A stretch of 64,000 nucleotides of DNA from assembly GCA_019744775.1 (NCBI GenBank), contig JAIETZ010000004.1:186001-250000 (forward strand), read 5' to 3'. The translations under genes were made by a program, and so were the position numbers. The stretch is from Candidatus Obscuribacterales bacterium. Its GTDB lineage: Bacteria; Cyanobacteriota; Vampirovibrionia; Obscuribacterales; Obscuribacteraceae. A model generated the notes under the pieces. That model was not told the DNA's origin and searched no databases. It saw nothing but the letters and a program-made list of their open reading frames with translations. Position 1 is the stretch's first letter. Every line of letters starts with the position of its first letter. Positions 32 to 27,690 of the stretch are shown here, piece after piece.

Positions 32-985
32 CTACGCTCTTGGGTGGGATTGACTGTAGATTTTCCGCAGTCTGTCCATACTCACGTGCGTGTAGATCTG
101 GGTGGTGCTAATAGACGAGTGACCCAGGAGATCCTGAACCACGCGGAGATCGGCTCCACCTTCCAGCAAATGTGTGGCGAATGTGTGTCTTAGTGTGTGT
201 GGTGTAATTGTCTTGTTAATACCTGCCTTGCGGGCGTACTTCAAGACAATTCTGTGCACTGAACGTGTCGACAGCGGTGTCGATTCACGGCTAATAAAGA
301 GCGGATCTTTACCTTCCGGAAGACGTCCACCAGCCAAACGAGACCAGTGCTCATTGAGGTAACGACGCAACCACTCGTTGGCGCTTTCATTCAAAAGCAC
401 AACGCGTTCGCGGCTACCCTTGCCGAAGCAACGAATTTCCATGGTTTCCGGGTTGTATTCAGCAACCGTCAAACCGCAGAGTTCGCTTACTCGCATGCCT
501 GTAGCATAAAGTGTTTCCATAATTGCTCTGTCGCGAACACCCAAAGATGAGTTGTCCGGTTGAGAGAGAAGATTCTTCACCTCTTCGCGATCCAAGCAAG
601 CCGGCAAGCGACGAGCAAGTTTCGGTCCACGAAGTGGCTTCGATGGATCTTCAGTAATCAATTGCTCGCGGCGCAAGAAACGGCAAAAGCTTCTAATAGC
701 CGAAATCTTACGGGCAACTGTCGGGCGGCTGTACTGATCAGTAATGTCTCTGATGTAGGTTCTCAGCGCTTCCGCTTCCAACCAACCTGAACTATTACCG
801 CTCGTACCGGCCATCAATGTACCTTCAACCTGAGGAACTTGTCCCTCCGGTTGTCCTGAGGAGTTAATCAACTGCCTCAGATCATTTATATATGCGCGAA
901 TTGTGTGCGATGAATAATTACGTTCTGCTTCAAGGTAGCCCGCAAATTGATCGAGCCACACCAGTGCCCCTGGTTGGTAAGTCAC
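32..985 (-). CDS. xerC: Tyrosine recombinase, XerC/XerD family
   Basis: A 317-aa site-specific recombinase, by family most likely one half of the Xer system that resolves chromosome dimers at dif. All catalytic residues are visible: Arg165 (ATGMRVSEL), Lys189 (GKGSRER), His263/Arg266 (HTLRH), His289 (LLGHSS) and the nucleophile Tyr298 (TQIYTHV). The N-terminal SAM-like DNA-binding domain is present (about residues 8-110). It carries an unusual Gly/Ser/Gln-rich stretch at about residues 42-68 that most XerC/XerD proteins lack. The start is GTG, preceded by GAGGG at a good distance. It diverges from the giant gene at 1370. XerC and XerD cannot be told apart firmly from sequence alone. An integrase of a mobile element is less likely, because the length and the XerC-like N-terminus fit the housekeeping family. 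Confidence 0.9.
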   Translation of the reverse strand: MTYQPGALVWLDQFAGYLEAERNYSSHTIRAYINDLRQLINSSGQPEGQVPQVEGTLMAGTSGNSSGWLEAEALRTYIRDITDQYSRPTVARKISAIRSFCRFLRREQLITEDPSKPLRGPKLARRLPACLDREEVKNLLSQPDNSSLGVRDRAIMETLYATGMRVSELCGLTVAEYNPETMEIRCFGKGSRERVVLLNESANEWLRRYLNEHWSRLAGGRLPEGKDPLFISRESTPLSTRSVHRIVLKYARKAGINKTITPHTLRHTFATHLLEGGADLRVVQDLLGHSSISTTQIYTHVSMDRLRKIYSQSHPRA

Positions 986-1369: not shown

Positions 1370-4300
1370 ATGATCCAGTTCAGAAAGAAGCTGGCATTAC
1401 TTTGCGCATTCGGTTTCTTATTTGTACACCTGCAAGGAAGTGTTGCCTTAGCGCAGGAGTCGACATCAAGCGTTCCAGATTCTCACAGTTGTGACTCGGC
1501 AACATGCGTGAATGGCACGAATCCAGCAACGGCAACTATTGTCGAATCTGCCTCACACTCAACACCAATTAACTTGGACCTCAGCTCGACCCAGCAAACG
1601 GTTGCGCTGCCAACAACAGCCACATTTTTGCCTTTCAACCTATCTGTTACCGACGGAAGTTCTCTACCTATTCAGCCTGGTGCTTTGCTAACTCCAGCAC
1701 AATTTATTGCTGCCTTCCAGATTCTATCGGGAGGCACGCAAGAACTACTGCTTGGGATAAATGGTAATGCTGTCGGTGGCAGCTTTGCCATTAATGAGAC
1801 CCTAAGCCAGCCGCTGGGCAACCTGGTGGTTCCGCAGGGTGTAACAGCCATTCATGACTTTGGCGTAGCATCCGAACTAAATCTTGCCGGCATTCTAAGC
1901 AATGCTGGAACTTTCTACGCAGTGTCCAGCAACATGGCGGTCAACAGTGCCGCAATCAGCAGCTCCAGTATTATCAACCAGCAGGGCGCGCTTATCACTT
2001 CGGTCCTGCCCACAGCTGGATTGCCTGGATACAGCAACTTGCTCTCATCCCTGAATCTCAACGTGAGCGCAATACAGGAGATACTAAATCACGGCACGAT
2101 TAGCTCCTCAGCCAATCTTTTGATGTCAGCCGGCGGGTCGATAGCGAACACCGGTTCCATAACAGCAGCTCAAAATGCCGTCCTCAATGCAGTCATGGGA
2201 AACATAAACAACTCGGGGTTAATTGCAGCATCAACCGGAAATCTCCATTTGTCTGCCGGCGGTTCTATATTGAACACGGCGAACATATTAGCCGGACACA
2301 ACGCCGCACTGATGTCCATTATAGGTAGTATCGCCAACTCCGGACTTGTTGCCGCCGACTCAGGCAATATCAACCTGACTTCAGAGCTAGGCCGGTCACT
2401 TGCTGTAAATAACATTGAAGGCACTCTACGTGCCCTCAATGCTCAGATCAATATTGAGAACATCTTCAATGATGAAGCAAGCATTATTAGCCTGGCAGGC
2501 GGTGACTTGCTTTCTCAGGAATTGAATCTTTCAGCCGGTGCAGGCAAAGTCAATTTGGCAGCAGGCAATGTCAGTGGAGTCGTGAACATCGACGCAGCAT
2601 GCGCCAATTTATCCGTGTCCGGACCAAGTCTGAATCTGGGCAGACTCAACATAACCGGCGACCCAACGTTCTACAATAGTGGCGGTTCTGTGGTGTTGAA
2701 CAATCCGGGTACATTTCAAGTCAATGCAAATCTGGCTGTGGTAGCCAGCCAGGACATAATCATCAATGGACCGTCGGGTGAAGGTATCATCACCAACCCG
2801 GGAGCCGGTCAGGCAGGAGATGTTTATCTGTTTGCTGGCGCAAACTTCACAGCACCTCTACCACTGCAAAATCTACAGTCAGGCCCGGATTTTGCAACAA
2901 CAATTACTTTACAGGGCGGCTCAACAACCGGCGGAGCCGTCTATGTGCCCGGCGGCATCAGAACCAACGGCGGCATTGTACAAATTGCGGCGTACTCGGG
3001 AAACGGTAGCGGCTCCACCCTCAATCCCGGATCTATCCAGGTAGGTGATGTGAGCACAAAAGGCGGCGGCGTTGCAATGATTTCCGGCGCTACATCGGGA
3101 GTCGGCATCAGCACCGGCAACATCACTACATCTACTGCAAGCGGTCCTAAGAATGGTGGAAACGTCGGCCTTCTTGCCGTGCCATTCACATCGCCTTCGT
3201 TTTCAATTACAAACGCAGTGCCGTCAACTTTCCCTGCCCCATTTGCTCCGACAAGCAGCACTTACAATAGCGCGCTCATTTCAACAGGCAATATCCTCAC
3301 AGCAGGCGGCGGCGGCAATGGCGGCACAGACCTGAGTCCTATTGGGCAAGCCGGTGGCTCAGGCGGAAGCGTAACCATTAGATCAAATGGAACTATAAAC
3401 ACAGGTTTCGTCAGAACCTTCGGCGGCGGAGGCGGAGGCGGTGTCGGTAACAACCCGGGAGGCGTCGGCGGAACAGGTGGAACTGTGCTGTTAGATGCTG
3501 GAGCAGGCTCGGTCAATGTATTGGGCGATATCAACAGCTCGGGAGGAGGAGGCGGCGGCGGTGGATCTTTTAACACAGTTGCACTGATTTACATCGCAGG
3601 TGGTTCCGGCGGCAGCGCCGGAGCGGTCTCGATTTCAAGCAATAGCGTAGTGAGCATTGCTGGAGCGATACTTGCAGCCGGCGGCGGCAACGGCGGCTCT
3701 GGCAAGAGTACTTTCTTATTCGGGCTTGGACAAGCCGGCGGTGGTGGCGGCAGCTACGGCGGTGGAGGCGGTGGCGGCGCGACAGGAGGTGGAGCTCAAG
3801 TACCAGGAGGTGCTGGAGGCGGCGGTCTATATGGTGGTGGCGGCGGCGGCGGTGGCGGAAACGGCACTGTTTCTGCAGGAGGAGGCGGCGGCGGTGGTTT
3901 TGCAGGCGGCGGCGGCGGCGGTGGCGGCGCAGGAGGTTTTCAGGACGCTGGCACAACACCACCTCCTCCTGAAGCAGGTGGCGGTGGTGGTGGTGGCGGT
4001 CTGGGGATAGGCGGCGGTGGCGGTGGCTCCACGGGCGCGAACGGTGCCGCTGGCAGTGGTGGAGGCAGTGGTGGAGACGGATTACCCGGAGGCGGCAACC
4101 TCAGTTCACCAGGTGGAAGCGGCGGACCAGGCGGTGGCGGCTCAGGTGGTGCGGGGACCGTCGGCAATACGGTCATAGTGAACGGCGGAGCTGGCGGCGC
4201 CGGTGGGGGTGCCGGAGCAGGCACTGGGGCAGGCGGCGCCGGAGGAGTCAACTTAGGGGGCAGCATTCCGCTGGGCGGAGGCACACCTGTGCCACCAGTA

Positions 4301-7300
4301 CCGGACACAAACGGTGCTGCAGCCGGCTGGGGTGGCGGCGGACAAGTAACTATTTCAGGACACTCGCTTCATGTTGGACAATCAAACGGCACAGGTTCCA
4401 ATCTCGGGTCAATAAGAGCCGAAGGACCGGGCGGTTTCATTAACATCCAAACAAGTCCCACCGCCAAGGCAGTTTATTTTAACGACGCCAATTACGGCCC
4501 GGGTGCCCAGTTATACGCGTCTCCATTGGGCGGATTTGGAGCAGAAGGTCCAAGTGTTGCCAATCAGATTGTAATAAATGGAAGTGTTATGGGTTCACAA
4601 GTTGCTGCAGGCAGATATGGCGGGCAGGCAGTTAATATACGCTATTCGACCAACTTAACCAGACAAGTGAGCGTGGCCAATTTGCTGACCCCGGCCGAAC
4701 AGATAGCTGTTGTGCAAGTCTTAACTGGCGGACTCGCTTCTCAAACTATCGTACTAAGCGACCTGCTCACGCGTTCTGCTATTGGCGGCAATTTTACTAT
4801 AGACAGCAGCCTGATTCCATCAGGAGGGTTCACTAGCTTAAACCTTCCTTCTACAGTAACGGCAAATGTGAATGTACCGACGTTAACTTATGCAGGGCCA
4901 GCCACCATTGATGGATTCGTGAGTTTCAGCTCCGGTGGAGCTCAACTGCATGTTTCAAATGGAAATATAGCAGGTAGCGGAAGAGTAATCGGGTCTTACG
5001 CGCTTAGAATTAGCGCCGGCAATGGCAGCATCGGCGCAAGCGGCAACCCGCTTGGTGTTCAGGCTAGGGTGCTTGGCTTGGACGCAGCTGGAAGCGGCAA
5101 TGTTTTCGCGCTATTTATGGACAACATTCAGCTTGAGCTGCATAACTCTACTGCTGCTGGACAATTTAACTTATATGCACCCCAGACTATAACGTCTTCG
5201 CCGGGTACGTCAATCTCCTCACCAATAGTAATTATTGAATCGGGAGTCGCCATAGGTGAGCAAGGAGCCCCGCTCAATATCAACGGCACGACGCAACTGA
5301 CTGCCAAGGCGGGTCTTTCTGTATACGTCAGAAACATTTCTCCAACTGGAACTACCACACTTGCAGGGGCCAACAACATGTTTGGTCAAGCCATTGTTAA
5401 TAGGGGTACTACTTACAACCTGCAATCGCAAGGAGACATAATAGCTGCCGGTGGCGCAAGCTCGCTTCCCGAAAGTGCCGTAACGGCAGCTTCTGTCGCA
5501 CTAAACTCGACACTTGGCAATGTGGGCAGCAGTACCAAACCTGTTCTTCTTGGGACCGCTTATACAAATTTGACTGCGCAAGCTGCACAATCGGTTTTCG
5601 TAAAGAATCCACTAAACGGCGCAACATCGTTGAGTAGCTCTGTTTTGTCAGATGGCTCCTTGATAACAAACAAGGCAGGCAATACATATTCGTTTGAGTC
5701 CGAAGGAACAATAGCTTCGCTTTCAGTTGGCACACTCGCAGACAACAGCATCTCAGCTCCCCGTGTCATCGTTACTTCCAACAACGGCGATGTCGGCTTA
5801 TCTTACCTGCCCGTGCTTTTGTCCGGACAATCAGGACAAACTACCTTACTTACAGCAAGAGCTCTCAGCGCCGGCGGATCAGTAAATATTCGCGCACTTT
5901 CACCGGGTCTGACAGTCAGCTTACGTGACGTCTTTTCGGGTGGCTTTCCTTTGTATGACAACGGAGCCGGTCAAACATACAGCCTTCAAGCGGCCTCAGA
6001 CATCATTTCGTCTACGGCGGGGGCAGGCAGCACGATCACGGCACCCACCACTGTTCTATACTCACTTGCCGGAAACACTGGCACTGCGGCATCTCCAGTT
6101 ATGTTGAGCGGGACCAGCAACCTTACTGCTCAAGCCAGCCAATCAGTTGTAATACGTGACATAACAAACGGAAATATAACATTGCAAGGAAATGTCGCTG
6201 CTGACGGCACGACTATCACCAACAAAGCGGGCAGCACATACAACTTGCAGACCGTAGGGGACATAGTCTCATCTAATATAGGCACACCGGCAAACAACGC
6301 AATCCTGGCAAGCAGCATAATACTTTATTCCACTACAGGCAATGTCGGCACAGCAGCTTCACCTGTCCTGCTCAATGCTTTGTTTGCTCCGTTAACCGCA
6401 CAAGCTTCATCAACTGGCAAGTCGGTCTTCATCAATAATATCTTAGTGCCACCACCACCGGGGTCATTGCCATTTGATGCAAGCACTACGGTAATTTTAT
6501 CAAATGGCGTGGCTGCAGGCGGAGCAGCCATAACCAATCGAGCCGGCTCAATTTACAACATCCAGGCGGTCGGGCGCATAATCGCCGCTTCACAAACGGT
6601 CGAAATTACAGCACCAGATGTGGTTTTGTATTCTTCAACAAGCGATGTCGGTTCAAGCGCCGCGTCGCCTATTCGTATAAGCAGCCCGAGTAACTTAACA
6701 GCAAAAGCAGCAGGCTCGGTGTTCATCAACAACACAGCTACAGGTCCTGGTACGACCGTGAGTCTTAAGAGCGCCAATTCCGTAGACGGTACTTTAATTG
6801 CAAACTCTGCCGCCGGTCAATTCAATATAGCGGCTCAAGGCAATATAGTCAGCTCAGCTTCAGGTGCCGCAAATGCAATCAGCGCTCCAATCACTATATT
6901 ACATTCAGTTGCCGGCAGTACAGGTACTGCCACAGCGCCGGTGCTGATAAACGGTGCAACAACACTGACTGCACAAGCGAACCAAGATGTGCAGATAAGC
7001 ACTGCCGACATTCTCCAGCCGTTCAGCATCAGTTTCGGCAACGCAGCCGTTCAATCTAGCAGCGGCAACATAATATCAAACAAAGCCGGGAGCCTATACA
7101 GAGTATTTTCAAACAGCGATATTTCGCTTTCGTCCGATCTGTTAGTTGAAGCACCACTTTTTCAGCTGCAGTCACAAAGCGGCAATCTAACAACATTGAA
7201 CATTAGGAACAGCGGTCAGAGTATCGATATGAGCGCTAATTCTGGCAGTATAAGCACCGGCAATATCATCACAGCGGGTATCGGCGGAACAGCCGGTAAT

Positions 7301-10300
7301 ATGGCTGCCGCAGGTGGACCTGGACAGAACGCCGGCAACATAAGCATTAATGCCCTGGCGAACATAAACACAGGCATGCTGCTTGCTTATGGCGGCGGCG
7401 GTGGTGGCGGCACTACCGGCGGTGCGGGCGGCTCCGGCGGCAATGTATTGATTGGCTCAACAGGCGGCTCAGTTATTACAAACGCAATTAACAGCTCTGG
7501 CGGAGGTGGCGGCGGCTCATCTGCTATCGGCTCTGCAGGAGGAGCCGGCGGATCTGCCGGCAATATTACGATATCCGTAAACCATCCTAACAGCGTGGCA
7601 ATCCAAGGATCGGTTCTGGCGGCTGGTGGCGGCAACGGTGGCAGCTCGACAACGGCCTTTGGCGGAGCTGGCGGCGGCGGCAGTTTCGGCGGCGGCGGCG
7701 GTGGTGCGGCCGGTACAAATGCTGGTGGCGGGGGTGGAGGCTATGGCAGCGGAAGCGGGGGCAATTTCTTCACGGCGGGCGGCGGTGGCGGTAGCACTGC
7801 CGGTAATGGCGCTGGTGGTAATGGCATGCCCACTGGCGGCTCAGGTGGCTTCTTTGGCATGGGTGGCGCTGCCGGAAATGCAGTCAGTTCAAACGGTGCA
7901 AATGTTGGCTCACCAGTAGGATCAGGAAACGGCGGCGCTATTTCCATAAGCGCACTTGTAGTTTCAATAACTGGCACTGTAGCCGGACTTGGCGCCGGAA
8001 CTGCTTATTCATCATCAGCATTTACGCAGGATTCTCTGAATGCTCTGGGTGCTGGTGGATCTATAGTGATAGGAACGCCTTCAGGACAGTCCTACTTTGC
8101 TGACGCTAACTATGCAGCCGGTGCTGCTACTTATCTGGCGCCGGCAGGCCGGTTCGTCTCTGTCGGTTCGCTGCAAGCCGATCAACCAATTGTAATTAAC
8201 GGTGTGAGTTTCGCATCTCCTGTAGCTGCAGGATCATTCGATACTGTAGGCAGTATCCTTGAGGGGACTCAGCTGGTTCTGATTACACCAGGATCATTCA
8301 TTACACCGGCTGAACAAATAGCTTTTTTGCAGGTTCTAGGGGGCGGGCCGCAAACACTTTTACTTGGCCAGCCAGCTGCCACAAACACCCCCGGAACAGG
8401 TTTTGCATCAGGCGGTAACTTCAGTATTAACAACCAGAACGTTCCGTCGGGCGATTTTAACAGCTTAACTTTGCCTGCAGGCGTTACAGCACAGGTGAAT
8501 GTTCCAACTCTGACTTACACAGGGCAGGCGACAGTAGACGGCAATATTAACTTCAGTTCTGCAAGCGCCCAGCTCAATGTTGGATCAAGCCTTAACTTAG
8601 GCGGCACGATCAATTTCAATGGCGCCACAAGTGGTGCTGTCCTTGCCGGAAACACAATTTCCGGATCAGGCTCAGTAAGCTCGCTTAGTGGGCTGCTTTC
8701 AATAACTTCGACTGCCGGCAATATCGGCACAAGCCTCACGGCGCTTGCCGTGAGTTCAGGCGCAAGCGGCATTATGCAGCTTAGACTTAACGCAAACGCC
8801 CTGACAAACGCAGCCGGACTCGGCAATGTATACATAAGATCGGCAGACGCAGATTTGAGCGCCACTTTGCCTGCTCTTTTGCTAGCAGGGTCCTCGGCTG
8901 GTTCCGGTCTGCCTGCAGATAATACGACAGGCAATTTTGAAGTGACAGCAACAAGTGGCGGTATCGGCATTTTAGGAGCTGTCAGCGCCACAACCGGTCT
9001 GACACTTTCGGCAAACACAAATCTGACCCAGCAAGCCGGAGGCAGCTTTGCCAGCAAAGGCTTAAGCCTTCTTGCGCGCACTGGCTCTGTGTATATTCAA
9101 TCATTAAGTGTAAATGGTGGCGGCATTTCACTTATGTCCGGTCAGGACGTCATTGTCGCAGGCGGGCTCGCGACAGTGCCCGGTGCTGTGCAAGGCGATC
9201 TCACGCTTGTCGCCGGGGCCAATTTTGTAAACGCCTTTTCAATAAATGGAGCTTCCGCCACAGGTGGCACAATTTTTGTTACCGGACCAATAACTACAAG
9301 CGGCAATAATTTCACAGCAGCGGCTTACACAGGAAGCGGCACCGGCTCTGCGTTTTTACCGGGCACTGTTTCTGTGACAGGAGCCATAAACACAGGTGCT
9401 GTATCAGGCAGCCAAATTAACGGCAACGCAGCTATTATTGCTGCCGGAAGCAGCAGCGCCATTAGCGTTGCCGGCATAACAACATCTTCTGGAGCTGGGT
9501 CCAGCCCGGCAGCAGGCTCAATTCATCTTTTTGCAGCAACACCAGTAATTAACGGCGGCACCGATCTATTTACAAAAGCAGGTGCGATTTCACCAAGACC
9601 GCCATTTGAAGTCAGTGGACTCGTACTTAGTTCAGGTTCTATAACTGCCGGCAATTTGATGGCCGCAGGCGCAGCCGGTCCCTACGACAGCTTTGCCGGC
9701 TCCGGCTCCCCGGGCGGTGCCGGTGGCACAGTAACTATTGGCGCAGGTGGCAATATCAACACCGGATTCATTAGAAGCTTCGGCGGTGGCGGCTGGGGCA
9801 CCTTTCTTGAAAATGGCCTTGCAGGTGGTGCTGGCGGCGCAATTGCAGTCACTTCAACAGGCGGCGCCATAAACATAGCTGGCGACGTGAACGCATCTGG
9901 CGGTGGCGGCGGCGGTGCCGGCGGCAGCCTTCTAACGCCGTATGTCGGCGGCGCCGGCGGTTCCGGAGCTAATGTCACAGTCAGCGGCACTGGCACTGTA
10001 AATATCATAGGTCCGGTGCTCGCAGCAGGCGGCGGCAGCGGCGGCAAAACAATGGACTTTTTCGGTCATGTCAGCGGCGGCGGCGGCAGCTTCGGCGGGC
10101 GGGGCGGCACCGGCGGCGATACCAGTGGCAACGGGCTTGGGCTGGGATTTGCAGACTCAATACCAAATTATGGCGGCGGCGGTGGCGGCTTCGGACTGGG
10201 AGGCAGCGGCACAAGCCTTGTCGAGAACGGCAGTGATGCCGGCGGCGCATCAGCAGGCGCCGTTGTCATAAACGGCAGGCTGGTCGCCATAGGCACAATC

Positions 10301-13300
10301 GGACAGTTGCTAACATCAACCGGCGGCAGCTTTGATCTGGACTCTGTGAATGCGCTTGGAGGCGGCGGCACCGTTATACTCAACTCACAGTTCGGGCAAA
10401 CAACTTACTTCAACGACGCCAACTACGGAGCACTTGCAAATGTCTACCTGGCACCCGGCAGCGGCAGGCTGCAGGCGGGAAGTGGCATCGGCACGCCGAT
10501 TACTGTAAATGGCATTGCAAGCGCATCTCCTGTGAATTTAGGTATATTCGGCGCCGGCGGTGCCACTATAGAAGAATCCGGATCCCCTTTTGTAATATTG
10601 CCCGGCATGTTTATAACGCCGGCCGAGCAGATTGCATACATTCAAGTGGCAGCCGGTGGACCGCAGGCGCTTACTTTAGGAGGCACAGGACCCGGTACAG
10701 GTCGTGCAATCGGCGGCTCTTTCTCAATTCAAACTGAAAACATCCCCACTGGAAATTTTACGAACTTGCGCCTGCCGCCTACAGTTGTGGCTAATGCTAA
10801 CGTGTCGATTCTTACTTATACAGGTTCGGCCCAGATTAGCGGAACGTTGAATCTCAACAACAGTACATCACAACTAAATATAGGCGGCAGCACTTCCGTA
10901 TTAGGGCTGGGCAGCATAACATTCAGTAATAACAGCAGTGGTGCATTAACATCAGGCGGCTCTATCGATCTAAGTGGTCCCGGCATAGGACTTACTGTGA
11001 ACAGCTTCTCCCCGTCCACTCTCGTTTTGGTTTCGGGTGGCGAGATCCGTTCTGTAGCAGCGCTGCTTAATCTAAGCCAGCCGAATGCGCTTGATTTGAC
11101 CGTCATAGCAGGAGTGAACTTGAGCCCGATTCAAGCTGACGGCAGTGTGAGTTTCTCGGCCGGCTCAACCTCAGGCGGGGCAGTACAGGTAAACTCATCA
11201 ATTAGCACTAACGGAGGCAAGCTGGAGATAGCCGCCTACGCTGGCAGCGCCTTGGGTTCGGGATCGGTAAATATTGCAGGAACAATAGATACTAACAACG
11301 GCAATTTGACGATAATATCCGGTGCCGCATCAGGCACAGGAATTTCAACAGGACAGATCATAAGTGCTGGCACGGCGCTTACAGGAAGCGCCGGCAGTGT
11401 CCGACTCCTCACAGCAAGTCCGATCATCGCAAACCCGGGCGCAGCAACAATTGCTAACAGCACAATTAGCCCATCTCCAGTTTTCGCAACAAGCGGACTT
11501 ACCCTGAGTGGTGCCGGAATTTCAACCGGTGGCATACTGGCGGCCGGAGCCGGCGGTGCCGGAGCAACTGCCTCCGCAGGCGAAGCTGGCGGCGCAGGTG
11601 GTGAAATACAAATTCAAAGCGGCGGTTCAATATCTGTTGGTTTCGTTCGTAGCTTCGGAGGCGGCGGCGGTGGCGGTAGCGCAGGTGGTACCGGAGGCAA
11701 CGGTGGCAACATTAATATCACCGCAGTGTCAGGATTTATATTAATCGCAGGAGACATTAACAGCTCAGGAGGAGGCGGCGGCGGCAGTAGCCAAAGCGAT
11801 GTGCCAGGAGGACTGGGTGGCTCAGCTGGTTCGATTACCATCAGCACAAGCTCCGGCGTGGCAATCACCGGTCCCATTCTTGCTGTAGGCGGAGGCAATG
11901 GAGGCTACAATGACTCCGGAAGCACACTGTCAAGCGACTCGGGGGGTGGTGGAGGCGGCGGTTCATTCGGCGGCGGCGGTGGTGGCGCAGCTCATACATC
12001 AAGTGGGGCAGGTGGTGGTGGTGGATTCTATGGCGGCGGTGGTGCCGGCGGCGGAACTTCTAGTGCCACAGTAGGTGGTAGTGGTGCTGGCGGCGGCTAC
12101 GCAGGTGGTGGCGGCGGCGGTGGCGGTAGCACTGGCACAATAGCCGGCAGCGGCGGTGGCGGAGGTGGCGGGTTAGGCAACGGAGGAGGAGGCGGCGGTG
12201 GCGGTTTCTTCGGCGGTGCCGGGGCTGGCGGAGAAGGTGGTGGAGTTTCAGCAGGTAACAACGGTGTTAACGGAAGCAACACTATTAATGGTGGAACCGG
12301 AGCCTTCGGTGGTTCCGGCAATGGCGGTGGCGGTAACGGCAGCTCAGGGCAGGGAGCCTCAGGCGACTTTATCGGCGGGAGGGGCGGCAATGGCGATACT
12401 ACCGGCGGTGGCACACCCAACGGTGGACTCGGGTCCAATGGCGGTGCCGGTTTTGGCGGTAGATTTGGAAGCGGTGGCACATCAGGTGGACTCACATCAG
12501 GAACCAACGGCGCTGAAGCAGGCGCAACCGGTGCAAGCGGAAATTCCGGGGCAATAACCATATCCGGACAAACAATAAGCGTATCAACAGACATAGGAAA
12601 CCTGGACGGTGGCTCCTCCGGCTTCTCACTCTCGAATTATAATGCCGATGCGCTCAACGCCCTTGGAAATAATGGCACTATTGTAATTTCAGCCGGCGCT
12701 TTTGCGCCCATATATTTGCCGGATGCAAACTACGGACTTGGTGCCAATACCTACCCCGCTCAGACAGGAGGATTTTTCTCCACCGGCGGTCTTGCGGCCG
12801 GCACGGGAGCGGGGCAGCCAATAACAATTGGCGGCGTATCCTACGCCTCGCCTGTAGCAGGCGGATCTTTTGGAGGTGAAACAGCCACCATTTTGGAGGA
12901 CGGCGTGTCGGTCACAATTGGTCCCGGCATGTTCATTACGCCGGCAGAACAAATTGCATTCGTGCAGGTAGTCTTAGGCGGAACGCCAGCCTCTCAAACA
13001 CTGATTTTGAGCCAGTCATTGTCTACAAGCAATCCAGGCACAGGTTATGCATCCGGTGGGGACTTCAATATCGACAGTAACAACATTCCGGATGGCGGCT
13101 TTACAAACCTGATCCTGCCGGATCTAGTAATTGCCACTGTGAGTGTGCCACTCACTTATTCAGGATCCGCATCAATTTCGGGAAGCCTAAATTTCAATTC
13201 ACCCGGTGCTCAACTGAATGTAGGCAACGGTCTGACTATCGCGCCAACAGGCATCATCGGAAGCGTCGACTCCCTATCAATAAATTTGGGCACGGACACT

Positions 13301-16300
13301 ACTTTCACTAACGATGGAAAAGTAGAGAGTCTCTCCCTTGCAGCTGCCGGTACAAACACCATATCTATATCCAGCTTGGGCACTTGGACACTTGCCGGCA
13401 GCACAGGAATTCTAGATCCTGGTCAGAATCACTTTGCAAAACTAACTTCACCCATCTCAGTGATCCTGGCAAACAGCCTAACTCAAGAGATCGGTTCAGC
13501 TGGTATTACAGCCAGCATAGAAATTGCCGCGCCTCGGCTTTACGGGCCGGATGACGGCAGTACTGCCAGTGTTAATACTAGCGGCACAGTGGTACTACAC
13601 AGTGGCTCCGCTGGAGGCTCATTTCAAGCAATTGGGAACGGAACCATCAACTTCGGCTCACCAGCTGGTGGTCTTACGAATTTTTCCTCGGCAACCGGCG
13701 GCGATTTGAACTTCACTATTCAAGACATTGTCTTGGAGCAGACAGGCACAACAGGCAATTCATTTGTGTTGAATTCAGGTGGCACATTCAGAAATTCCGG
13801 CACGATCCTTGTGAGTGCTGACACCATTACAATAGCTGGGACAGATCTGACTCTTAAAGGAGAGTTTGGGATTTTCAGCTTTAACTCAACCGGCTCAGTG
13901 CGGGTTGAGGCAAATGTGCTGAGAATGGACGATATAAATCTGTCGGTATCGAGCGGCTCCGACTTCGTGCTATCGGTCGCGCAGGTTGTCGGCAACTTTA
14001 CGACAATTCTAAACGGACCAGTAGTACTGGACGGTGTCAGCAGCACACGATTTTCACTGGCAGCAGGCGCAGCGGCAAGTATCATCCGCGTGGACTCGCT
14101 TCAAGACAGTAGCGGTTTCACGACATTGACAGTGGATAATGGAGTAACCGTCACTTCCGATGCCACCATTACGTTTGGCTCAGCAAGTAATTACAATGTA
14201 TCTGGTGCTATTTCTGCAAACGGACTGATAAGCCTTCCTTCAGACTCTCAGATTGTTATGGGCACTGGCTCAGCGCTAACGGCTCAGTCATCAAACAATA
14301 TTGACTTCGGTACCAATACCCAAATATCGGGCGGGAGTCTTTCCGGAACGATTACGGCAAACCAAATTAATTTCACTGGTGGCACGGTGAATGTAGATAT
14401 AAGAGAGATAAACGGACTATTGGGTCCTATCTCCACAGGCGGTTCCGACGTCACAATTCATACGGCTGTCGGTAATCTAGTGGTGGCACAGACTGGAGTT
14501 GATACCAGTGGCGGCAGCAACGCCGATGGAGGAACAATTGATTTGAGGGCTTCTACCGGATCCATTCGCGGAGTCACACTAGTCACAGCCCCCTCATTCA
14601 ACACGCAGGGCGACGGCAACGGCAAGAGTGCAGGTAGCATCAGCCTGATTGCAGGAATTGATCTATCCACAGCCACCGTCCAGGCTACGGGCATTAATGG
14701 GGCATCAGGACAGGCAATCACTTTGACTGCGCCAAACGGACTGAACTTAATTTCGGATGTAGATGCAAGAGGTTCGGTGGCCGGCGGCAATATCACCATA
14801 AATACGGAAGCTCTCTCCGGCACATCTGCGGCAGTCTCAACCAATTTTAACGCGACGATTTCAGTTGAATCGCAGGATAACCTCATTCTCACTGGCACCA
14901 CTACTTTCCGCACCGCCGGAGCCGGCAGCACTTCTTTTCTGGCTATGACAGCAGGGAAGTCCATTACGCTTGGTGATGCTGCAGCGTTAGTTGTAGAAGG
15001 AGGTGGAGACCTAAATATCCGCACACCAAACCTGATCTTTGCCGCGACTACAACCAGTCCTTCCCTAACCGCAACGGAAAACTCAGCCGTCACAATCAAT
15101 TCAGGCAACTCAAGTACAAATGTGAGTCTCAACATCACCGGTGCGGCAGGCTTTGGCGGAACTATAACTACTTGCGCCAACTGCGCAGGTTCGGGAGGTT
15201 CCATTTTAATCTCACCAACTGGAAATGGCTCTCTGACCTTCGCGATATCCGGTGTCGGTGTTACAGATTTGTCCTTTAATGGCGCCGATCTTGCCTTGAA
15301 CGCCACAGCTGTGACTATCAATCCAGGTGTATTCATAGGCTCAGATCAGCAAATTGTCGTCAATATGAATTACGCTGCGCCAGCAACACCGACGTTTGTC
15401 AACAACGGCTCGTTGGAAACACAATTCTCCGGAGCCAATACCTCAAGCATATTAATACAGAACACTCTCGGTAATCTTAATCTTTCAGGCAGCGGTTCAT
15501 TCTTGCAGGCAGGAAGTGTCAAAGGCGACACGGTATTTCGAAGCAGCGGCAACTTGACCATAATTGACGGAACATCCTTCACAGCTTCAGGTGGAGGTAG
15601 CGTCATTTTTTATGCTCTCGAAATACAGGTAAGCAGTCCTTCAGCCGCAACTGCATCTGCGACCTTCAGCGCCAACGGAGTCTCCAACTATGTGATTAAT
15701 TCCAGCTTCGTTTGCACTATTTGCCCACTAGCATTTCGCCCAGCCGGTTTGGCGACTACGTCCACTCTCAACTTGAACGGAGCCCCCGTAGCCACTAGCA
15801 CCGTCGGCGGTGCCACATTCAACCCGGTGTCCAGCATACTTGTCGGCGCCGACTTCACACTGGCAACCGACAGCTCGATTACTTTAAGCACAACCCCGTT
15901 TACACCTGGTACTTCCAGCATTGTGACTCTAGACGGGACAGTCAGCGCCCTGTCAGGCTCAGTCGTTGTTCAAAATCCGGACAATTTAATACTTGTAGGA
16001 ACAGGTAGAATTGAAACCGGTCCATTCGGTTCAATCAATTTCAATGCAGGCAATATGATTACCCTTGCAGGTGGAGTATTGCCGACCACACTGACCGTCG
16101 CGGGCGGGCCATTAAGCGTTGATGCTCCTCAACTTGTAATTGCATCCGGTCAGTCACTTATCAGAAACAACGATATCTCAATCACCACAAGCTCTCTTAC
16201 GAACAATGGCTCCCTGCAAATGCTGAGTCCAAGCAACATCAACGTATTAGCAGCCCAAGTCGGCAGCTCGCTTGACCTGACTGTAAACGGCTCCGGCTCT

Positions 16301-18013
16301 TATTCAGCCACCTATCTCAACCTTACATTGGACTGCTTGTGTAGTCCAAGTTCGGCGAATTTGACTTTATCAGGATCTCCGACGGTCGATGGATCTATCG
16401 CCATATTAACTGCTTCAATTGGATCAGTTGTTGTGCCAGTCAACACCAACGTAACTGCTTCAGATGGAATATCAGTGAGCACCAATAGCTTAAGCATCTT
16501 TGGTACTTTGCGAGCATTGGGTTCGCTTCCCATACTTGGAAGCGGCGGCATAAATATTGCAGACAATGGCTTGTCTGGCTCAGGTACCATGTCCATTAAC
16601 GGCCCCGGTACATTGATCGCCATATCCGATTCAATTGTTTTTCAACCCTCAAGTAACTCAATCACTTTTACAAACACGCTTACTTTGCGCGCTTCACCTG
16701 TCGGATCGTCCGCGGCAGTGTCAGTAGTAGACAATGCAAATCTGGGCGTGATATTAACTGCAAATGCGAATCTCATGGTGATTGGTGGAGATGGACGTAC
16801 TCTTATTGAAAGTCCGACAGGCTTACCTCTCAACCTTTTAGGATCAGGAAAACTCTCATCTACTACACAGCTAGCTATTACAGCTACCGCCCCAGCTTCC
16901 AACTTAAATTTGACAGGAAGCCCCAGTCTGTTGCTCGAAGGTCCGGTCTTCTTGTCTGCAACCGGGGGTGCCGTCAACATCATTTCTGGTCAGATAGCAC
17001 ACAGCGGACCGGTCATGCTCAACACGCCGGCAGCTATACCAAGCGGATTCAATCCTGACACAGACGTTGCTCAACTGAATTCCACGGTAACACCTCCAAA
17101 TTCCGTCAATGCCAGTCTCTATATAAGGACGAACGAACTTACCGTCAACGGCAACCTCAGTGCCATGACGGTAGCAGAAGCTGCGGCCGAAATTGGTACC
17201 GGCTCAAATTTCGGAACAGGTCTCGCTTCCCTAGAGACTGGGCGATTGCCAATTTTCTCATTTCTGTTTTCACTTTTTCAGCAAGGGGACATCACCAATT
17301 TGTCAGCTCCACAAATTATCGCCACCGACAAGACCCCGTTTAGACAAAGTACTTCTGAAGAAACATTCTTGCTAGGGTATTTGTCTAGCGATCAGCTTGA
17401 GCATCCAACCGGCTTTATTGCCACCCTTGAAGACGCCCGACTGCACACAGTAAGTCTTTTCACCCAGAACTGGGCAGAAAACGCCGGGCTTGTCGCGGGG
17501 CAACAAACAGGTGGCAATTCCCTGCAGCTAATGCAAGGGGCGGGTATTTTCACACCAGCACAAGACATAGTTATTCAAACAAACCACGGTACAGTTTATA
17601 TTGCCGCCAAGAGCACGGCGATAATTTGGACAACCGGTAAGGAAACTACAATCTATACCTTGCATAGCAAGCGCCTTGGTGATATTTCAGCGCTAGTGGG
17701 CAAACACCGCATTTCTATCCCTCTGGGCATGCAGTTAGTACTGGCAAATGGCGACGGTAAGAATTTGGAGGGCATAAATGCCATCACAGGAATCGCATTC
17801 AGGAATGCAATTGACTTGAACCTTGACGGTGAGGTTAAGGGATTTCTGGCGGATTTTTCCCTAATGTCGTCCATTGAAGCAATTAAGGTTCTCCGTGGGC
17901 TTGCCAAATCTGGCGACCCCGCTGCCAAGCGTTTTGTATCAATTCTTTTGAAAAATTCCGCCCTGTTGGCACACGTAACAGCTTCACACGGTCCTTACAA
18001 AACATCTAAATAG
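1370..18013 (+). CDS. Giant secreted modular repeat protein (5547 aa)
   Basis: A single uninterrupted frame. Residues 1-28 are a Sec signal peptide (two Arg/Lys clusters, hydrophobic core, cleavage near VALA-QE). After it come: a half copy of the TPAEQIA module (~105-165); filamentous-haemagglutinin-like repeats with SGLIAASTGNL-type units (~240-345); four glycine-rich blocks (Gly-Gly-Gly runs, about residues 645-990, 2005-2195, 2780-2955, 3390-3735); four full 'DANYG...TPAEQIA...LTYTG' cassettes; a distinct repeat array (~1305-1920); a beta-rich Ser/Thr/Asn region (~3950-5360); and a non-repetitive tail from ~5385. The composition and parallel-beta-helix-like repeats suggest a surface or extracellular-matrix fibre or adhesin. 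This is inference: no adhesin domain is proven. No LPXTG motif, autotransporter barrel or neighbouring TpsB transporter is visible, so the route across the outer membrane is unknown. Glycine blocks resemble mycobacterial PE_PGRS only in composition. Confidence 0.85.
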   Translation: MIQFRKKLALLCAFGFLFVHLQGSVALAQESTSSVPDSHSCDSATCVNGTNPATATIVESASHSTPINLDLSSTQQTVALPTTATFLPFNLSVTDGSSLPIQPGALLTPAQFIAAFQILSGGTQELLLGINGNAVGGSFAINETLSQPLGNLVVPQGVTAIHDFGVASELNLAGILSNAGTFYAVSSNMAVNSAAISSSSIINQQGALITSVLPTAGLPGYSNLLSSLNLNVSAIQEILNHGTISSSANLLMSAGGSIANTGSITAAQNAVLNAVMGNINNSGLIAASTGNLHLSAGGSILNTANILAGHNAALMSIIGSIANSGLVAADSGNINLTSELGRSLAVNNIEGTLRALNAQINIENIFNDEASIISLAGGDLLSQELNLSAGAGKVNLAAGNVSGVVNIDAACANLSVSGPSLNLGRLNITGDPTFYNSGGSVVLNNPGTFQVNANLAVVASQDIIINGPSGEGIITNPGAGQAGDVYLFAGANFTAPLPLQNLQSGPDFATTITLQGGSTTGGAVYVPGGIRTNGGIVQIAAYSGNGSGSTLNPGSIQVGDVSTKGGGVAMISGATSGVGISTGNITTSTASGPKNGGNVGLLAVPFTSPSFSITNAVPSTFPAPFAPTSSTYNSALISTGNILTAGGGGNGGTDLSPIGQAGGSGGSVTIRSNGTINTGFVRTFGGGGGGGVGNNPGGVGGTGGTVLLDAGAGSVNVLGDINSSGGGGGGGGSFNTVALIYIAGGSGGSAGAVSISSNSVVSIAGAILAAGGGNGGSGKSTFLFGLGQAGGGGGSYGGGGGGGATGGGAQVPGGAGGGGLYGGGGGGGGGNGTVSAGGGGGGGFAGGGGGGGGAGGFQDAGTTPPPPEAGGGGGGGGLGIGGGGGGSTGANGAAGSGGGSGGDGLPGGGNLSSPGGSGGPGGGGSGGAGTVGNTVIVNGGAGGAGGGAGAGTGAGGAGGVNLGGSIPLGGGTPVPPVPDTNGAAAGWGGGGQVTISGHSLHVGQSNGTGSNLGSIRAEGPGGFINIQTSPTAKAVYFNDANYGPGAQLYASPLGGFGAEGPSVANQIVINGSVMGSQVAAGRYGGQAVNIRYSTNLTRQVSVANLLTPAEQIAVVQVLTGGLASQTIVLSDLLTRSAIGGNFTIDSSLIPSGGFTSLNLPSTVTANVNVPTLTYAGPATIDGFVSFSSGGAQLHVSNGNIAGSGRVIGSYALRISAGNGSIGASGNPLGVQARVLGLDAAGSGNVFALFMDNIQLELHNSTAAGQFNLYAPQTITSSPGTSISSPIVIIESGVAIGEQGAPLNINGTTQLTAKAGLSVYVRNISPTGTTTLAGANNMFGQAIVNRGTTYNLQSQGDIIAAGGASSLPESAVTAASVALNSTLGNVGSSTKPVLLGTAYTNLTAQAAQSVFVKNPLNGATSLSSSVLSDGSLITNKAGNTYSFESEGTIASLSVGTLADNSISAPRVIVTSNNGDVGLSYLPVLLSGQSGQTTLLTARALSAGGSVNIRALSPGLTVSLRDVFSGGFPLYDNGAGQTYSLQAASDIISSTAGAGSTITAPTTVLYSLAGNTGTAASPVMLSGTSNLTAQASQSVVIRDITNGNITLQGNVAADGTTITNKAGSTYNLQTVGDIVSSNIGTPANNAILASSIILYSTTGNVGTAASPVLLNALFAPLTAQASSTGKSVFINNILVPPPPGSLPFDASTTVILSNGVAAGGAAITNRAGSIYNIQAVGRIIAASQTVEITAPDVVLYSSTSDVGSSAASPIRISSPSNLTAKAAGSVFINNTATGPGTTVSLKSANSVDGTLIANSAAGQFNIAAQGNIVSSASGAANAISAPITILHSVAGSTGTATAPVLINGATTLTAQANQDVQISTADILQPFSISFGNAAVQSSSGNIISNKAGSLYRVFSNSDISLSSDLLVEAPLFQLQSQSGNLTTLNIRNSGQSIDMSANSGSISTGNIITAGIGGTAGNMAAAGGPGQNAGNISINALANINTGMLLAYGGGGGGGTTGGAGGSGGNVLIGSTGGSVITNAINSSGGGGGGSSAIGSAGGAGGSAGNITISVNHPNSVAIQGSVLAAGGGNGGSSTTAFGGAGGGGSFGGGGGGAAGTNAGGGGGGYGSGSGGNFFTAGGGGGSTAGNGAGGNGMPTGGSGGFFGMGGAAGNAVSSNGANVGSPVGSGNGGAISISALVVSITGTVAGLGAGTAYSSSAFTQDSLNALGAGGSIVIGTPSGQSYFADANYAAGAATYLAPAGRFVSVGSLQADQPIVINGVSFASPVAAGSFDTVGSILEGTQLVLITPGSFITPAEQIAFLQVLGGGPQTLLLGQPAATNTPGTGFASGGNFSINNQNVPSGDFNSLTLPAGVTAQVNVPTLTYTGQATVDGNINFSSASAQLNVGSSLNLGGTINFNGATSGAVLAGNTISGSGSVSSLSGLLSITSTAGNIGTSLTALAVSSGASGIMQLRLNANALTNAAGLGNVYIRSADADLSATLPALLLAGSSAGSGLPADNTTGNFEVTATSGGIGILGAVSATTGLTLSANTNLTQQAGGSFASKGLSLLARTGSVYIQSLSVNGGGISLMSGQDVIVAGGLATVPGAVQGDLTLVAGANFVNAFSINGASATGGTIFVTGPITTSGNNFTAAAYTGSGTGSAFLPGTVSVTGAINTGAVSGSQINGNAAIIAAGSSSAISVAGITTSSGAGSSPAAGSIHLFAATPVINGGTDLFTKAGAISPRPPFEVSGLVLSSGSITAGNLMAAGAAGPYDSFAGSGSPGGAGGTVTIGAGGNINTGFIRSFGGGGWGTFLENGLAGGAGGAIAVTSTGGAINIAGDVNASGGGGGGAGGSLLTPYVGGAGGSGANVTVSGTGTVNIIGPVLAAGGGSGGKTMDFFGHVSGGGGSFGGRGGTGGDTSGNGLGLGFADSIPNYGGGGGGFGLGGSGTSLVENGSDAGGASAGAVVINGRLVAIGTIGQLLTSTGGSFDLDSVNALGGGGTVILNSQFGQTTYFNDANYGALANVYLAPGSGRLQAGSGIGTPITVNGIASASPVNLGIFGAGGATIEESGSPFVILPGMFITPAEQIAYIQVAAGGPQALTLGGTGPGTGRAIGGSFSIQTENIPTGNFTNLRLPPTVVANANVSILTYTGSAQISGTLNLNNSTSQLNIGGSTSVLGLGSITFSNNSSGALTSGGSIDLSGPGIGLTVNSFSPSTLVLVSGGEIRSVAALLNLSQPNALDLTVIAGVNLSPIQADGSVSFSAGSTSGGAVQVNSSISTNGGKLEIAAYAGSALGSGSVNIAGTIDTNNGNLTIISGAASGTGISTGQIISAGTALTGSAGSVRLLTASPIIANPGAATIANSTISPSPVFATSGLTLSGAGISTGGILAAGAGGAGATASAGEAGGAGGEIQIQSGGSISVGFVRSFGGGGGGGSAGGTGGNGGNINITAVSGFILIAGDINSSGGGGGGSSQSDVPGGLGGSAGSITISTSSGVAITGPILAVGGGNGGYNDSGSTLSSDSGGGGGGGSFGGGGGGAAHTSSGAGGGGGFYGGGGAGGGTSSATVGGSGAGGGYAGGGGGGGGSTGTIAGSGGGGGGGLGNGGGGGGGGFFGGAGAGGEGGGVSAGNNGVNGSNTINGGTGAFGGSGNGGGGNGSSGQGASGDFIGGRGGNGDTTGGGTPNGGLGSNGGAGFGGRFGSGGTSGGLTSGTNGAEAGATGASGNSGAITISGQTISVSTDIGNLDGGSSGFSLSNYNADALNALGNNGTIVISAGAFAPIYLPDANYGLGANTYPAQTGGFFSTGGLAAGTGAGQPITIGGVSYASPVAGGSFGGETATILEDGVSVTIGPGMFITPAEQIAFVQVVLGGTPASQTLILSQSLSTSNPGTGYASGGDFNIDSNNIPDGGFTNLILPDLVIATVSVPLTYSGSASISGSLNFNSPGAQLNVGNGLTIAPTGIIGSVDSLSINLGTDTTFTNDGKVESLSLAAAGTNTISISSLGTWTLAGSTGILDPGQNHFAKLTSPISVILANSLTQEIGSAGITASIEIAAPRLYGPDDGSTASVNTSGTVVLHSGSAGGSFQAIGNGTINFGSPAGGLTNFSSATGGDLNFTIQDIVLEQTGTTGNSFVLNSGGTFRNSGTILVSADTITIAGTDLTLKGEFGIFSFNSTGSVRVEANVLRMDDINLSVSSGSDFVLSVAQVVGNFTTILNGPVVLDGVSSTRFSLAAGAAASIIRVDSLQDSSGFTTLTVDNGVTVTSDATITFGSASNYNVSGAISANGLISLPSDSQIVMGTGSALTAQSSNNIDFGTNTQISGGSLSGTITANQINFTGGTVNVDIREINGLLGPISTGGSDVTIHTAVGNLVVAQTGVDTSGGSNADGGTIDLRASTGSIRGVTLVTAPSFNTQGDGNGKSAGSISLIAGIDLSTATVQATGINGASGQAITLTAPNGLNLISDVDARGSVAGGNITINTEALSGTSAAVSTNFNATISVESQDNLILTGTTTFRTAGAGSTSFLAMTAGKSITLGDAAALVVEGGGDLNIRTPNLIFAATTTSPSLTATENSAVTINSGNSSTNVSLNITGAAGFGGTITTCANCAGSGGSILISPTGNGSLTFAISGVGVTDLSFNGADLALNATAVTINPGVFIGSDQQIVVNMNYAAPATPTFVNNGSLETQFSGANTSSILIQNTLGNLNLSGSGSFLQAGSVKGDTVFRSSGNLTIIDGTSFTASGGGSVIFYALEIQVSSPSAATASATFSANGVSNYVINSSFVCTICPLAFRPAGLATTSTLNLNGAPVATSTVGGATFNPVSSILVGADFTLATDSSITLSTTPFTPGTSSIVTLDGTVSALSGSVVVQNPDNLILVGTGRIETGPFGSINFNAGNMITLAGGVLPTTLTVAGGPLSVDAPQLVIASGQSLIRNNDISITTSSLTNNGSLQMLSPSNINVLAAQVGSSLDLTVNGSGSYSATYLNLTLDCLCSPSSANLTLSGSPTVDGSIAILTASIGSVVVPVNTNVTASDGISVSTNSLSIFGTLRALGSLPILGSGGINIADNGLSGSGTMSINGPGTLIAISDSIVFQPSSNSITFTNTLTLRASPVGSSAAVSVVDNANLGVILTANANLMVIGGDGRTLIESPTGLPLNLLGSGKLSSTTQLAITATAPASNLNLTGSPSLLLEGPVFLSATGGAVNIISGQIAHSGPVMLNTPAAIPSGFNPDTDVAQLNSTVTPPNSVNASLYIRTNELTVNGNLSAMTVAEAAAEIGTGSNFGTGLASLETGRLPIFSFLFSLFQQGDITNLSAPQIIATDKTPFRQSTSEETFLLGYLSSDQLEHPTGFIATLEDARLHTVSLFTQNWAENAGLVAGQQTGGNSLQLMQGAGIFTPAQDIVIQTNHGTVYIAAKSTAIIWTTGKETTIYTLHSKRLGDISALVGKHRISIPLGMQLVLANGDGKNLEGINAITGIAFRNAIDLNLDGEVKGFLADFSLMSSIEAIKVLRGLAKSGDPAAKRFVSILLKNSALLAHVTASHGPYKTSK
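1684..1860 (+). repeat. TPAEQIA module, N-terminal half copy
   Basis: Encodes LLTPAQFIAAFQILSGG followed by a GGSFAIN... LVVPQGVTA stretch. This matches the second half of the cassettes further on but lacks the preceding DANYG half. Confidence 0.7.
2092..2400 (+). repeat. FHA-like beta-helix repeats
   Basis: Two to three ~45-residue units of the form 'SGLIAA.SGNL.LSAGGSI.N', with spaced Asn-Ser/Gly and alternating hydrophobic residues, typical of filamentous-haemagglutinin-type parallel beta-helices. Confidence 0.6.
3300..4340 (+). repeat. Glycine-rich block 1
   Basis: About 345 codons, mostly GGN glycine in runs of 3-8 separated by Ser, Ala, Asn and aromatic residues. It generates long proline-rich open frames on the minus strand that are not genes. 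Confidence 0.9.
4481..4970 (+). repeat. DANYG/TPAEQIA cassette A
   Basis: Starts FNDANYGPGAQLY (residue ~1037). LLTPAEQIAVVQVLTGG lies 65 residues later, then GGNFTID, NLPSTVTANVNVPTLTYAG and a LHVSNG end. Confidence 0.85.
5280..7130 (+). repeat. Array of ~85-100 aa repeats (LTA-A / ITNKAGSTYN type)
   Basis: About seven degenerate units, each running LTAQA..SV.I ... G..ITNKAGSTYNLQ..GDI.S ... ILYS..GNVGTAASPV.L. The units are unrelated to the DANYG cassette and occur only between cassette A and glycine block 2. Confidence 0.8.
7380..7960 (+). repeat. Glycine-rich block 2
   Basis: About 190 codons of the same Gly-run type as block 1, introduced by a shared INTGMLLAYGGGGGGG-like entry sequence. 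Confidence 0.9.
8093..8600 (+). repeat. DANYG/TPAEQIA cassette B
   Basis: FADANYAAGAATYLAP, then ING.SFASPVAAGSF, FITPAEQIAFLQVLGGG (65 residues after DANYA), GGNFSIN, VPTLTYTG and AQLNVG. Confidence 0.85.
9700..10235 (+). repeat. Glycine-rich block 3
   Basis: About 175 codons, the shortest of the four glycine blocks. It has the same entry (GFIRSFGGGG) and exit (DSVNALGGGG) sequences as its relatives. Confidence 0.9.
10408..10890 (+). repeat. DANYG/TPAEQIA cassette C
   Basis: FNDANYGALANVYLAP, ITVNGIASASPV, MFITPAEQIAYIQVAAGG, GGSFSIQ, LTYTGSAQISG and SQLNIGG. Organised like copies B and D. Confidence 0.85.
11540..12560 (+). repeat. Glycine-rich block 4
   Basis: About 340 codons of Gly runs, similar in size to block 1. 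It enters through GFVRSFGGGGGGG and leaves into NADALNALGNNG. Confidence 0.9.
12714..13230 (+). repeat. DANYG/TPAEQIA cassette D
   Basis: LPDANYGLGANTYPAQ, ITIGGVSYASPVAGGSFGG, MFITPAEQIAFVQVVLGG (70 residues after DANYG), GGDFNID, LTYSGSASISG and AQLNVG. It is the last copy; the rest of the protein has no further one. Confidence 0.85.
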
Positions 18014-21994: not shown

Positions 21995-22328
21995 CTAGCT
22001 CTTTGTTATTCGTTTTCAGAATTTGTTTAGATTCGACGCCATCATTGGTGCCTATACGCTGATTTCTTGCGCTTCGTAACGCTGCAAATAGATCTTTTCT
22101 CATCGAATTAAGCTACAATACCCCTTGGCATATCTCGCAAAAACACGGCTAACGCCTTGTGAGAGATGCTATTCCGGTTTGTGATCGATAGATAAGGTTA
22201 TAAATATTTGTGTTTACAATCGCCTGGGTTAGCCCCATCTACATTGACAGTACATTAACTCCTTACGTAAACTTGCTAGCTTGTCCCTTAAATCCCATGA
22301 GCTTTTAGCCAGCACCCAGAGGTATCCA
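21995..22328 (+). other. Leader region of the RNA polymerase operon
   Basis: 334 bases without a gene, holding the rpoB promoter candidate at 22244-22273. No L10/L12 genes precede rpoB, in contrast to Proteobacteria and as in Cyanobacteria. No attenuator or protein-binding RNA structure was recognised. Confidence 0.5.
22244..22273 (+). promoter_or_regulatory. Candidate rpoB promoter
   Basis: A perfect -35 TTGACA at 22244-22249, then an 18-base spacer and TAAACT (22268-22273). Transcription would begin about 50 bases before the rpoB ATG. Confidence 0.5.
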
Positions 22329-25811: not shown

Positions 25812-27644
<1,833 letters not shown>

Positions 27645-27690
27645 TAGTTGTACTTCATAGCCAAATTTGCATCATAAGGAAATAACAGGC

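Follow-up and report, generated by a model that had tools for sequence, protein, structure and literature searches.

What kind of protein is encoded by a single open frame of 16.6 kb, and what is the sequence cassette that recurs along it? These questions are raised by a gene in the window, the stretch of 64,000 nucleotides that was analysed here (C4:186001-250000 of genome G000, 4.10 Mb in 13 contigs), from Candidatus Obscuribacterales bacterium. The giant ORF (1370..18013, + strand) runs without interruption through 5547 codons and a stop, and AGGAG at 1359-1363 provides a Shine-Dalgarno sequence upstream of its start. A Sec-type signal sequence, MIQFRKKLALLCAFGFLFVHLQGSVALAQ, was read at the N-terminus of the product. 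Pfam and NCBIfam scans of the entire 5547-aa protein returned zero family matches. A tyrosine recombinase gene (phage-integrase family, XerC/D-like; window 32-985, - strand) lies just upstream and is divergent. Elsewhere in the window, rpoC is present as two adjacent genes (599 and 1232 aa; 25845-31365), adjoining rpoB at 22281-25793; the split rpoC1/rpoC2 arrangement is known from Cyanobacteria. The features of the giant gene are as follows.

1370..18013, + strand: giant gene, 5547 aa plus stop (open frame; AGGAG 1359-1363; ortholog in L099)
1370..1456, + strand: predicted Sec signal peptide, residues 1-29 (by eye; equivalents on complete paralogs)
1532..2077, + strand: N-terminal head, residues 55-236, with NLDLSST, the TPAQFIAAFQIL helix and putative first beta coils (9-paralog alignment; profile matches)
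3680..4294, + strand: Gly-rich block 1, residues 771-975, 56% Gly (Gly content)
4463..4681, + strand: DANYG element 1, residues 1032-1104 (self-match, motif)
4682..4954, + strand: internal head 1 (LTPAEQIAVVQVL...), residues 1105-1195 (self-match, head profile)
7637..7873, + strand: Gly-rich block 2, residues 2090-2168, 53% Gly (Gly content)
8081..8296, + strand: DANYA element 2, residues 2238-2309 (self-match, motif)
8297..8629, + strand: internal head 2 (ITPAEQIAFLQVL...), residues 2310-2420 (head profile; model mean pLDDT about 83-95)
10088..10195, + strand: Gly-rich block 3, residues 2907-2942, 47% Gly (Gly content)
10394..10609, + strand: DANYG element 3, residues 3009-3080 (self-match, motif)
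10610..10939, + strand: internal head 3 (ITPAEQIAYIQVA...), residues 3081-3190 (head profile)
11924..12496, + strand: Gly-rich block 4, residues 3519-3709, 54% Gly (Gly content)
12710..12931, + strand: DANYG element 4, residues 3781-3854 (self-match, motif)
12932..13264, + strand: internal head 4 (ITPAEQIAFVQVV...), residues 3855-3965 (head profile)
13265..17269, + strand: terminal Ser/Thr/Asn/Gly-rich segment, residues 3966-5300, without cassette (sequence; presumed beta-solenoid)
17513..17857, + strand: predicted FecR-like beta domain, residues 5382-5496 (family alignment; model; Foldseek 4m0h)
17858..18010, + strand: predicted helical tail (...LLKNSALLAHVTASHGPYKTSK) (family alignment; model)

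The initial annotation had described four Gly-rich blocks alternating with a conserved cassette, and the repeat structure was measured. Each of the four blocks (47-56% Gly) stands upstream of one DANY[GA] motif. The T of TPA[EQ] was found at residues 108, 1107, 2312, 3083 and 3857, within 3-4 residues of the five starts given earlier (about 105, 1103, 2309, 3080 and 3854); in the first copy the motif is TPAQF. DANY begins at residues 1039, 2245, 3016 and 3785, the second copy being DANYA, and the D-to-T distance from DANY to TPA[EQ] is 68, 67, 67 and 72 residues, close to the near-constant 65-70 residues originally estimated. When the protein was compared with itself by BLASTP with low-complexity masking on, six pairwise matches were obtained among the internal cassettes (140-220 aa, E 7.8e-24 to 4e-28), and the N-terminal element matched one internal element with an E of 7e-7. 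These matches, together with the purifying selection described below, indicate that the cassette is a real unit and not a product of chance, as had been proposed. The VPTLTYTG part ending in LNVG is present as a tail, but some copies have a degenerate form of it, copy 1 having LTYAG/LHVS. The whole protein contains 19% Gly, and the blocks sum to 511 of 5547 residues, about 9% of the protein; of the 19 paralogs examined, 14 have no such block by the same criterion. The last 1,600 residues or so (3966-5547) hold neither cassette nor Gly block.

The two halves of the cassette were found to have different distributions. Giant paralogs of the same genome begin with a signal peptide, followed by an NLDLSST motif, a TPAEQ helix and beta-type sequence, together called the head here. 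In an alignment of nine paralogs, window protein included, the TPAEQ half aligned with the N-terminal heads of the other 8 over 24 invariant columns, with a mean column identity of 57%. The head profile gave 13 near full-length matches among the giants of the genome, plus several partial and internal copies. Internal copies were detected by this search in the 8554-aa and 5630-aa paralogs as well, and the window gene has four further, internal heads. These alignments indicate that the cassette is composite: its TPAEQ half is the head that is shared at the N-terminus across the family, and its DANYG half is a separate element of internal junctions only. The first copy had been described as holding only the second half of the cassette. 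It does lack the DANYG half, but it is not truncated: because the TPAEQ half is N-terminal in the paralogs, the seemingly incomplete first copy is the original head and, judged from the alignment, the ancestral form. DANYG was also considered as a mark of every family member; this was rejected, since no further giant of the genome contains the motif. No Pfam or NCBIfam family covers the head, including the named families (FHA, PE_PGRS) that could have accounted for it, and a PDB sequence search with the head profile gave no match.

A second shared region, of about 200 aa, was found at the C-terminus. This C-domain is common to nearly all giants; the sole giant without it is cut by a contig end. 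AlphaFold modelled it as a beta domain plus helical tail with a pLDDT of about 71-96, and its best Foldseek match in the PDB was the FecR-type structure 4m0h (E 1.2e-3, probability 1.00, TM about 0.3), suggesting that the C-domain is related to FecR in fold. At the sequence level, PF04773 (FecR) did not match the window protein, and its sole matches, in two paralogs, stayed below threshold. No significant similarity emerged when the C-domain was compared by profile with a genuine FecR protein encoded by the genome, a PDB sequence search with the C-domain profile yielded chance-level matches only, and no Pfam or NCBIfam family covers the domain. Matches to the C-domain profile came from about 20 giants and from some 13 small proteins. 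About a dozen small ORFs (G000 L075-L086, roughly 230-580 aa) carry the C-domain alone, several of them with signal-peptide-like N-termini; these small proteins are possible assembly partners or regulators of the giants. Because the C-domain is nearly universal in the giants and also stands alone in small proteins with signal-like starts, we propose that it serves as an anchor or assembly site.

The window protein thus has the features by which the family is defined, a signal peptide, an NLDLSST/TPA[EQ] head and a C-terminal FecR-like/helical domain. In genome G000, 20 giant ORFs of 1,727-25,007 aa carry the head, the C-domain or both, two of them being cut by contig ends, and together they amount to 125,834 aa, or 9.2% of the genome. 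Complete paralogs carry signal sequences equivalent to that of the window protein. A genome search detected the TPAEQ part on other giant ORFs as well, so the head is associated with giant proteins of a putative surface type. One member (C2:174643-249666; L140-L143) is a single unbroken frame of 75 kb for 25,007 aa, with a signal peptide-like start and the family C-domain; its product is among the very large bacterial proteins. Four family giants of 5765, 7405, 3942 and 10865 aa stand in tandem on one strand at C6:20935-105525 (L131-L135), and some of them have weak internal head copies. A literature search retrieved no description of these giants and no link between Obscuribacterales and haemagglutinins; subscription papers and preprints were outside that search.

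The distribution of the family was analysed in related genomes. Within the same family, 18 of 24 genomes contained the head, as did 3/3 of a second family of the order, with up to 40 matches per genome and 30-40 in some relatives. It was detected in 0/13 genomes elsewhere in the class and in 0/385 other genomes of the phylum sample, and the C-domain showed the same taxonomic pattern. Within the genomes sampled, both domains thus appear limited to two families of the order Obscuribacterales; the suggested restriction to Melainabacteria was right and can be narrowed to this order. Records with the head are mostly titled Candidatus Obscuribacterales, Obscuribacter or Melainabacteria MAGs, and some loci come from an uncultured bacterium bin. 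Obscuribacterales-type heads were also seen in a MAG titled Chloroflexi bacterium Bin_14_1_1 (SBAT01 contigs; L110, L111, L116 and L121), which is probably mislabelled or mixed. The DANYG element is rarer than the head, with four copies in the window protein and diverged copies in giants of G026, G016, G013, G007 and G019. At three inspected loci from three other genera, one of them in another family, a Gly block, [DN]ANY or NADY and a TPAE head follow each other in the same order, indicating that this architecture of the cassette predates the genera.

An ortholog of the giant gene was found in another species of Obscuribacterales (L099; JAIEQI010000075.1), where cassettes 1-3 are kept in order. 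These cassettes are 74-80% identical to their positional counterparts and 36-52% identical to the others, indicating that the duplications precede the species split. The dN/dS against this ortholog was 0.12-0.13 for long stretches and 0.06-0.12 for the cassettes, at a dS of 1.4-2.3, which is near saturation; from these values the cassettes are judged to be under purifying selection. Upstream neighbours are not common to the two loci. The ortholog changes frame between its two parts at L099:14398-14539 in the deposited MAG contig, by a real event or an assembly error.

Structure prediction of one cassette was carried out with AlphaFold on an alignment of 38 sequences from the window and related loci. 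Residues 2292-2439 were modelled with high confidence (head pLDDT 83-95) and consist of two strands, a helix at 2313-2323 (in TPAEQIAFLQVL) and then many strands of mostly 3-6 residues. The head is thus predicted to be a folded unit with a helix, and its strand series is typical of a beta-solenoid-like structure. The DANYG strand of cassette 2 was intermediate (pLDDT about 77-80), while pLDDT fell below 50 in the linker (2261-2290), in the Gly block and from about residue 2445 onwards. The confident modelled part after the cap comprises about 150 residues. Because the head is confident behind a disordered linker, the cassette is best read as an end-of-solenoid and restart junction. Foldseek searches of the cassette model against PDB and viral libraries gave no significant match; the top non-significant PDB hit was the TPS domain of P. 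mirabilis hemolysin A (E 2.7, TM about 0.1). On post-head regions, the beta-helix repeat TIGR01731 matched 7 of the 38 relatives' rows weakly (best 2.9e-4) and Fil_haemagg 3 of the 38, also weakly. The designation beta-solenoid is thus based on the strand pattern and these repeat-family matches. Autocorrelation of hydrophobicity along the stalk, as a signal of rungs, was not clearly above shuffles in the window protein, and the entire stalk is a presumed beta-solenoid.

Taken together, we consider it fairly probable that the product is a giant protein of the cell surface or matrix, exported by Sec and composed of five tandem beta-solenoid segments that each begin with a head cap, with a FecR-like end. 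Each segment would open with a head, composed of a short strand pair and the amphipathic helix [LI]TPA[EQ]xIAxxQVL followed by parallel beta coils, and the head would act as an N-terminal cap nucleating solenoid folding. The segment would then pass into a Gly-rich block and close with the DANYG strand element, after which a flexible linker and the next head would restart a new solenoid. The outcome would be a chain of five rods with hinges, held or assembled at the cell surface by the FecR-like domain and helical tail at its end. In related beta-helix exoproteins, caps shield the solenoid ends and aid the onset of folding during export. The surface location, the anchoring and the role of the heads as caps and restarts are putative, and so is the most likely function, which is adhesion, biofilm matrix or a coat.

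The initial annotation had seen the cassette as an assembly or binding unit separating Gly linkers. A folded and conserved unit it is, but it is better read as a cap that restarts the solenoid. We give some, clearly minor, credence to the possibility that the cassette itself binds a ligand or polymerises and is repeated to raise avidity, with the Gly blocks acting only as spacers: this would fit the strong conservation, the repetition, the purifying selection on the cassettes and the disordered linker ahead of the head. However, the head is also the first domain of giants with a single copy, and in the model it runs directly into beta coils, which fits a cap better. The two roles are compatible and need not exclude each other. 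We regard as unlikely that the protein is an FHA-type two-partner-secretion exoprotein with a diverged N-terminal TPS domain, its internal heads being duplicated TPS-like domains. The signal peptide and conserved N-terminal head followed by beta-helix-type sequence would agree with such an origin, as would the TIGR01731 and Fil_haemagg matches in relatives and the hemolysin A TPS domain as top fold match, although the TM of the fold matches is about 0.1. Moreover, PF05860 had no match in the protein or the genome (the genome search matched no control genome either and is therefore poor evidence of absence), the ShlB/TpsB barrel (PF03865) has 0 matches in the genome, and the sole POTRA_2 protein above cut-off is Omp85/BamA-like.

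A Gly-rich PE_PGRS-like or purely elastic or antifreeze-like protein, in which the cassettes have no special role, is very improbable. The overall Gly content and blocks of up to 56% Gly would be expected of it, but PE, PGRS or other family matches are lacking, and the blocks form a small part of the protein and are absent from most paralogs examined. The chance that an assembly artefact or a spurious ORF is responsible is negligible. The frame change within the L099 ortholog indicates that long repetitive genes of this kind are error-prone in assemblies, but the 16.6-kb frame is intact, with a start, a Shine-Dalgarno sequence and the family C-terminus, the dN/dS is 0.06-0.13 and the same genome holds 20 similar ORFs. 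Beyond the preferred reading of head-capped solenoid segments, a more far-reaching view is speculative and rather doubtful: that Obscuribacterales possess their own class of giant surface proteins, reaching 25,007 aa and about 9% of a genome, with re-startable beta-solenoid segments, in which the head would be both folding nucleus and export or assembly signal for a transport route distinct from two-partner secretion and from autotransport, and the FecR-like C-domain would be the site of anchoring or polymerisation.

Obscuribacterales are uncultured, non-photosynthetic relatives of the photosynthetic cyanobacteria, and their cell surface is little known. About 20 giants per genome, with two domains outside Pfam and NCBIfam, offer a handle on attachment, matrix building and cell-cell interaction. 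A further question is how chains as long as 25,007 residues can be exported when no partner has been recognised. The genome encodes a BamA-like Omp85 protein, and Melainabacteria have been reported with genes for a diderm envelope (PMC4040986). If the repeated cap is read rightly, it would be a natural case of solenoid restart within one chain.

Surface proteins of giant size and beta-solenoid build are already known, as in the FHA-type exoproteins and the Giants of Apilactobacillus kunkeei. FHA/two-partner-secretion exoproteins (PF05860, TIGR01731, PF05594) are likewise very long and carry a Sec signal and a conserved N-terminal capping region; their long parallel beta-helix of roughly 20-residue repeats has a counterpart in the weak TIGR01731 and Fil_haemagg matches of relatives. 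In contrast, the window protein has another N-terminal motif, a head reused internally and a FecR-like C-terminal domain, and its genome has no detected TPS domain or TpsB partner. The barrel of classical (type Va) autotransporters, PF03797, had no Pfam match, and the C-terminus was modelled as a FecR-like domain plus helices. RTX repeats had no Pfam or NCBIfam match in the window protein, which has a Sec-type signal peptide. Gly-rich tracts are shared with PE_PGRS proteins; however, no PE domain was matched by Pfam at the N-terminus, and the Gly blocks make up little of the protein and lie between structured segments. The C-domain resembles the FecR/anti-sigma periplasmic domain (PF04773; 4m0h) in predicted fold, but it ends giant secreted proteins or stands in small secreted single-domain ones, with an added helical tail. 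In A. kunkeei, Giant1-5 are extracellular proteins of 3,000-8,000 aa that take up about 6% of the genome, and Giant1-4 have a predicted N-terminal beta-solenoid (PMC12863079). Those Giants belong to a Gram-positive species, are encoded by five consecutive genes and have no known sequence relation to the present family, whereas the giants of the genome analysed here belong to a diderm lineage, number 20 ORFs with a maximum of 25,007 aa, occupy 9.2% of the genome and have repeated caps. The family described here is new in its sequence, in its reused cap and FecR-like end, and in its share of the genome.
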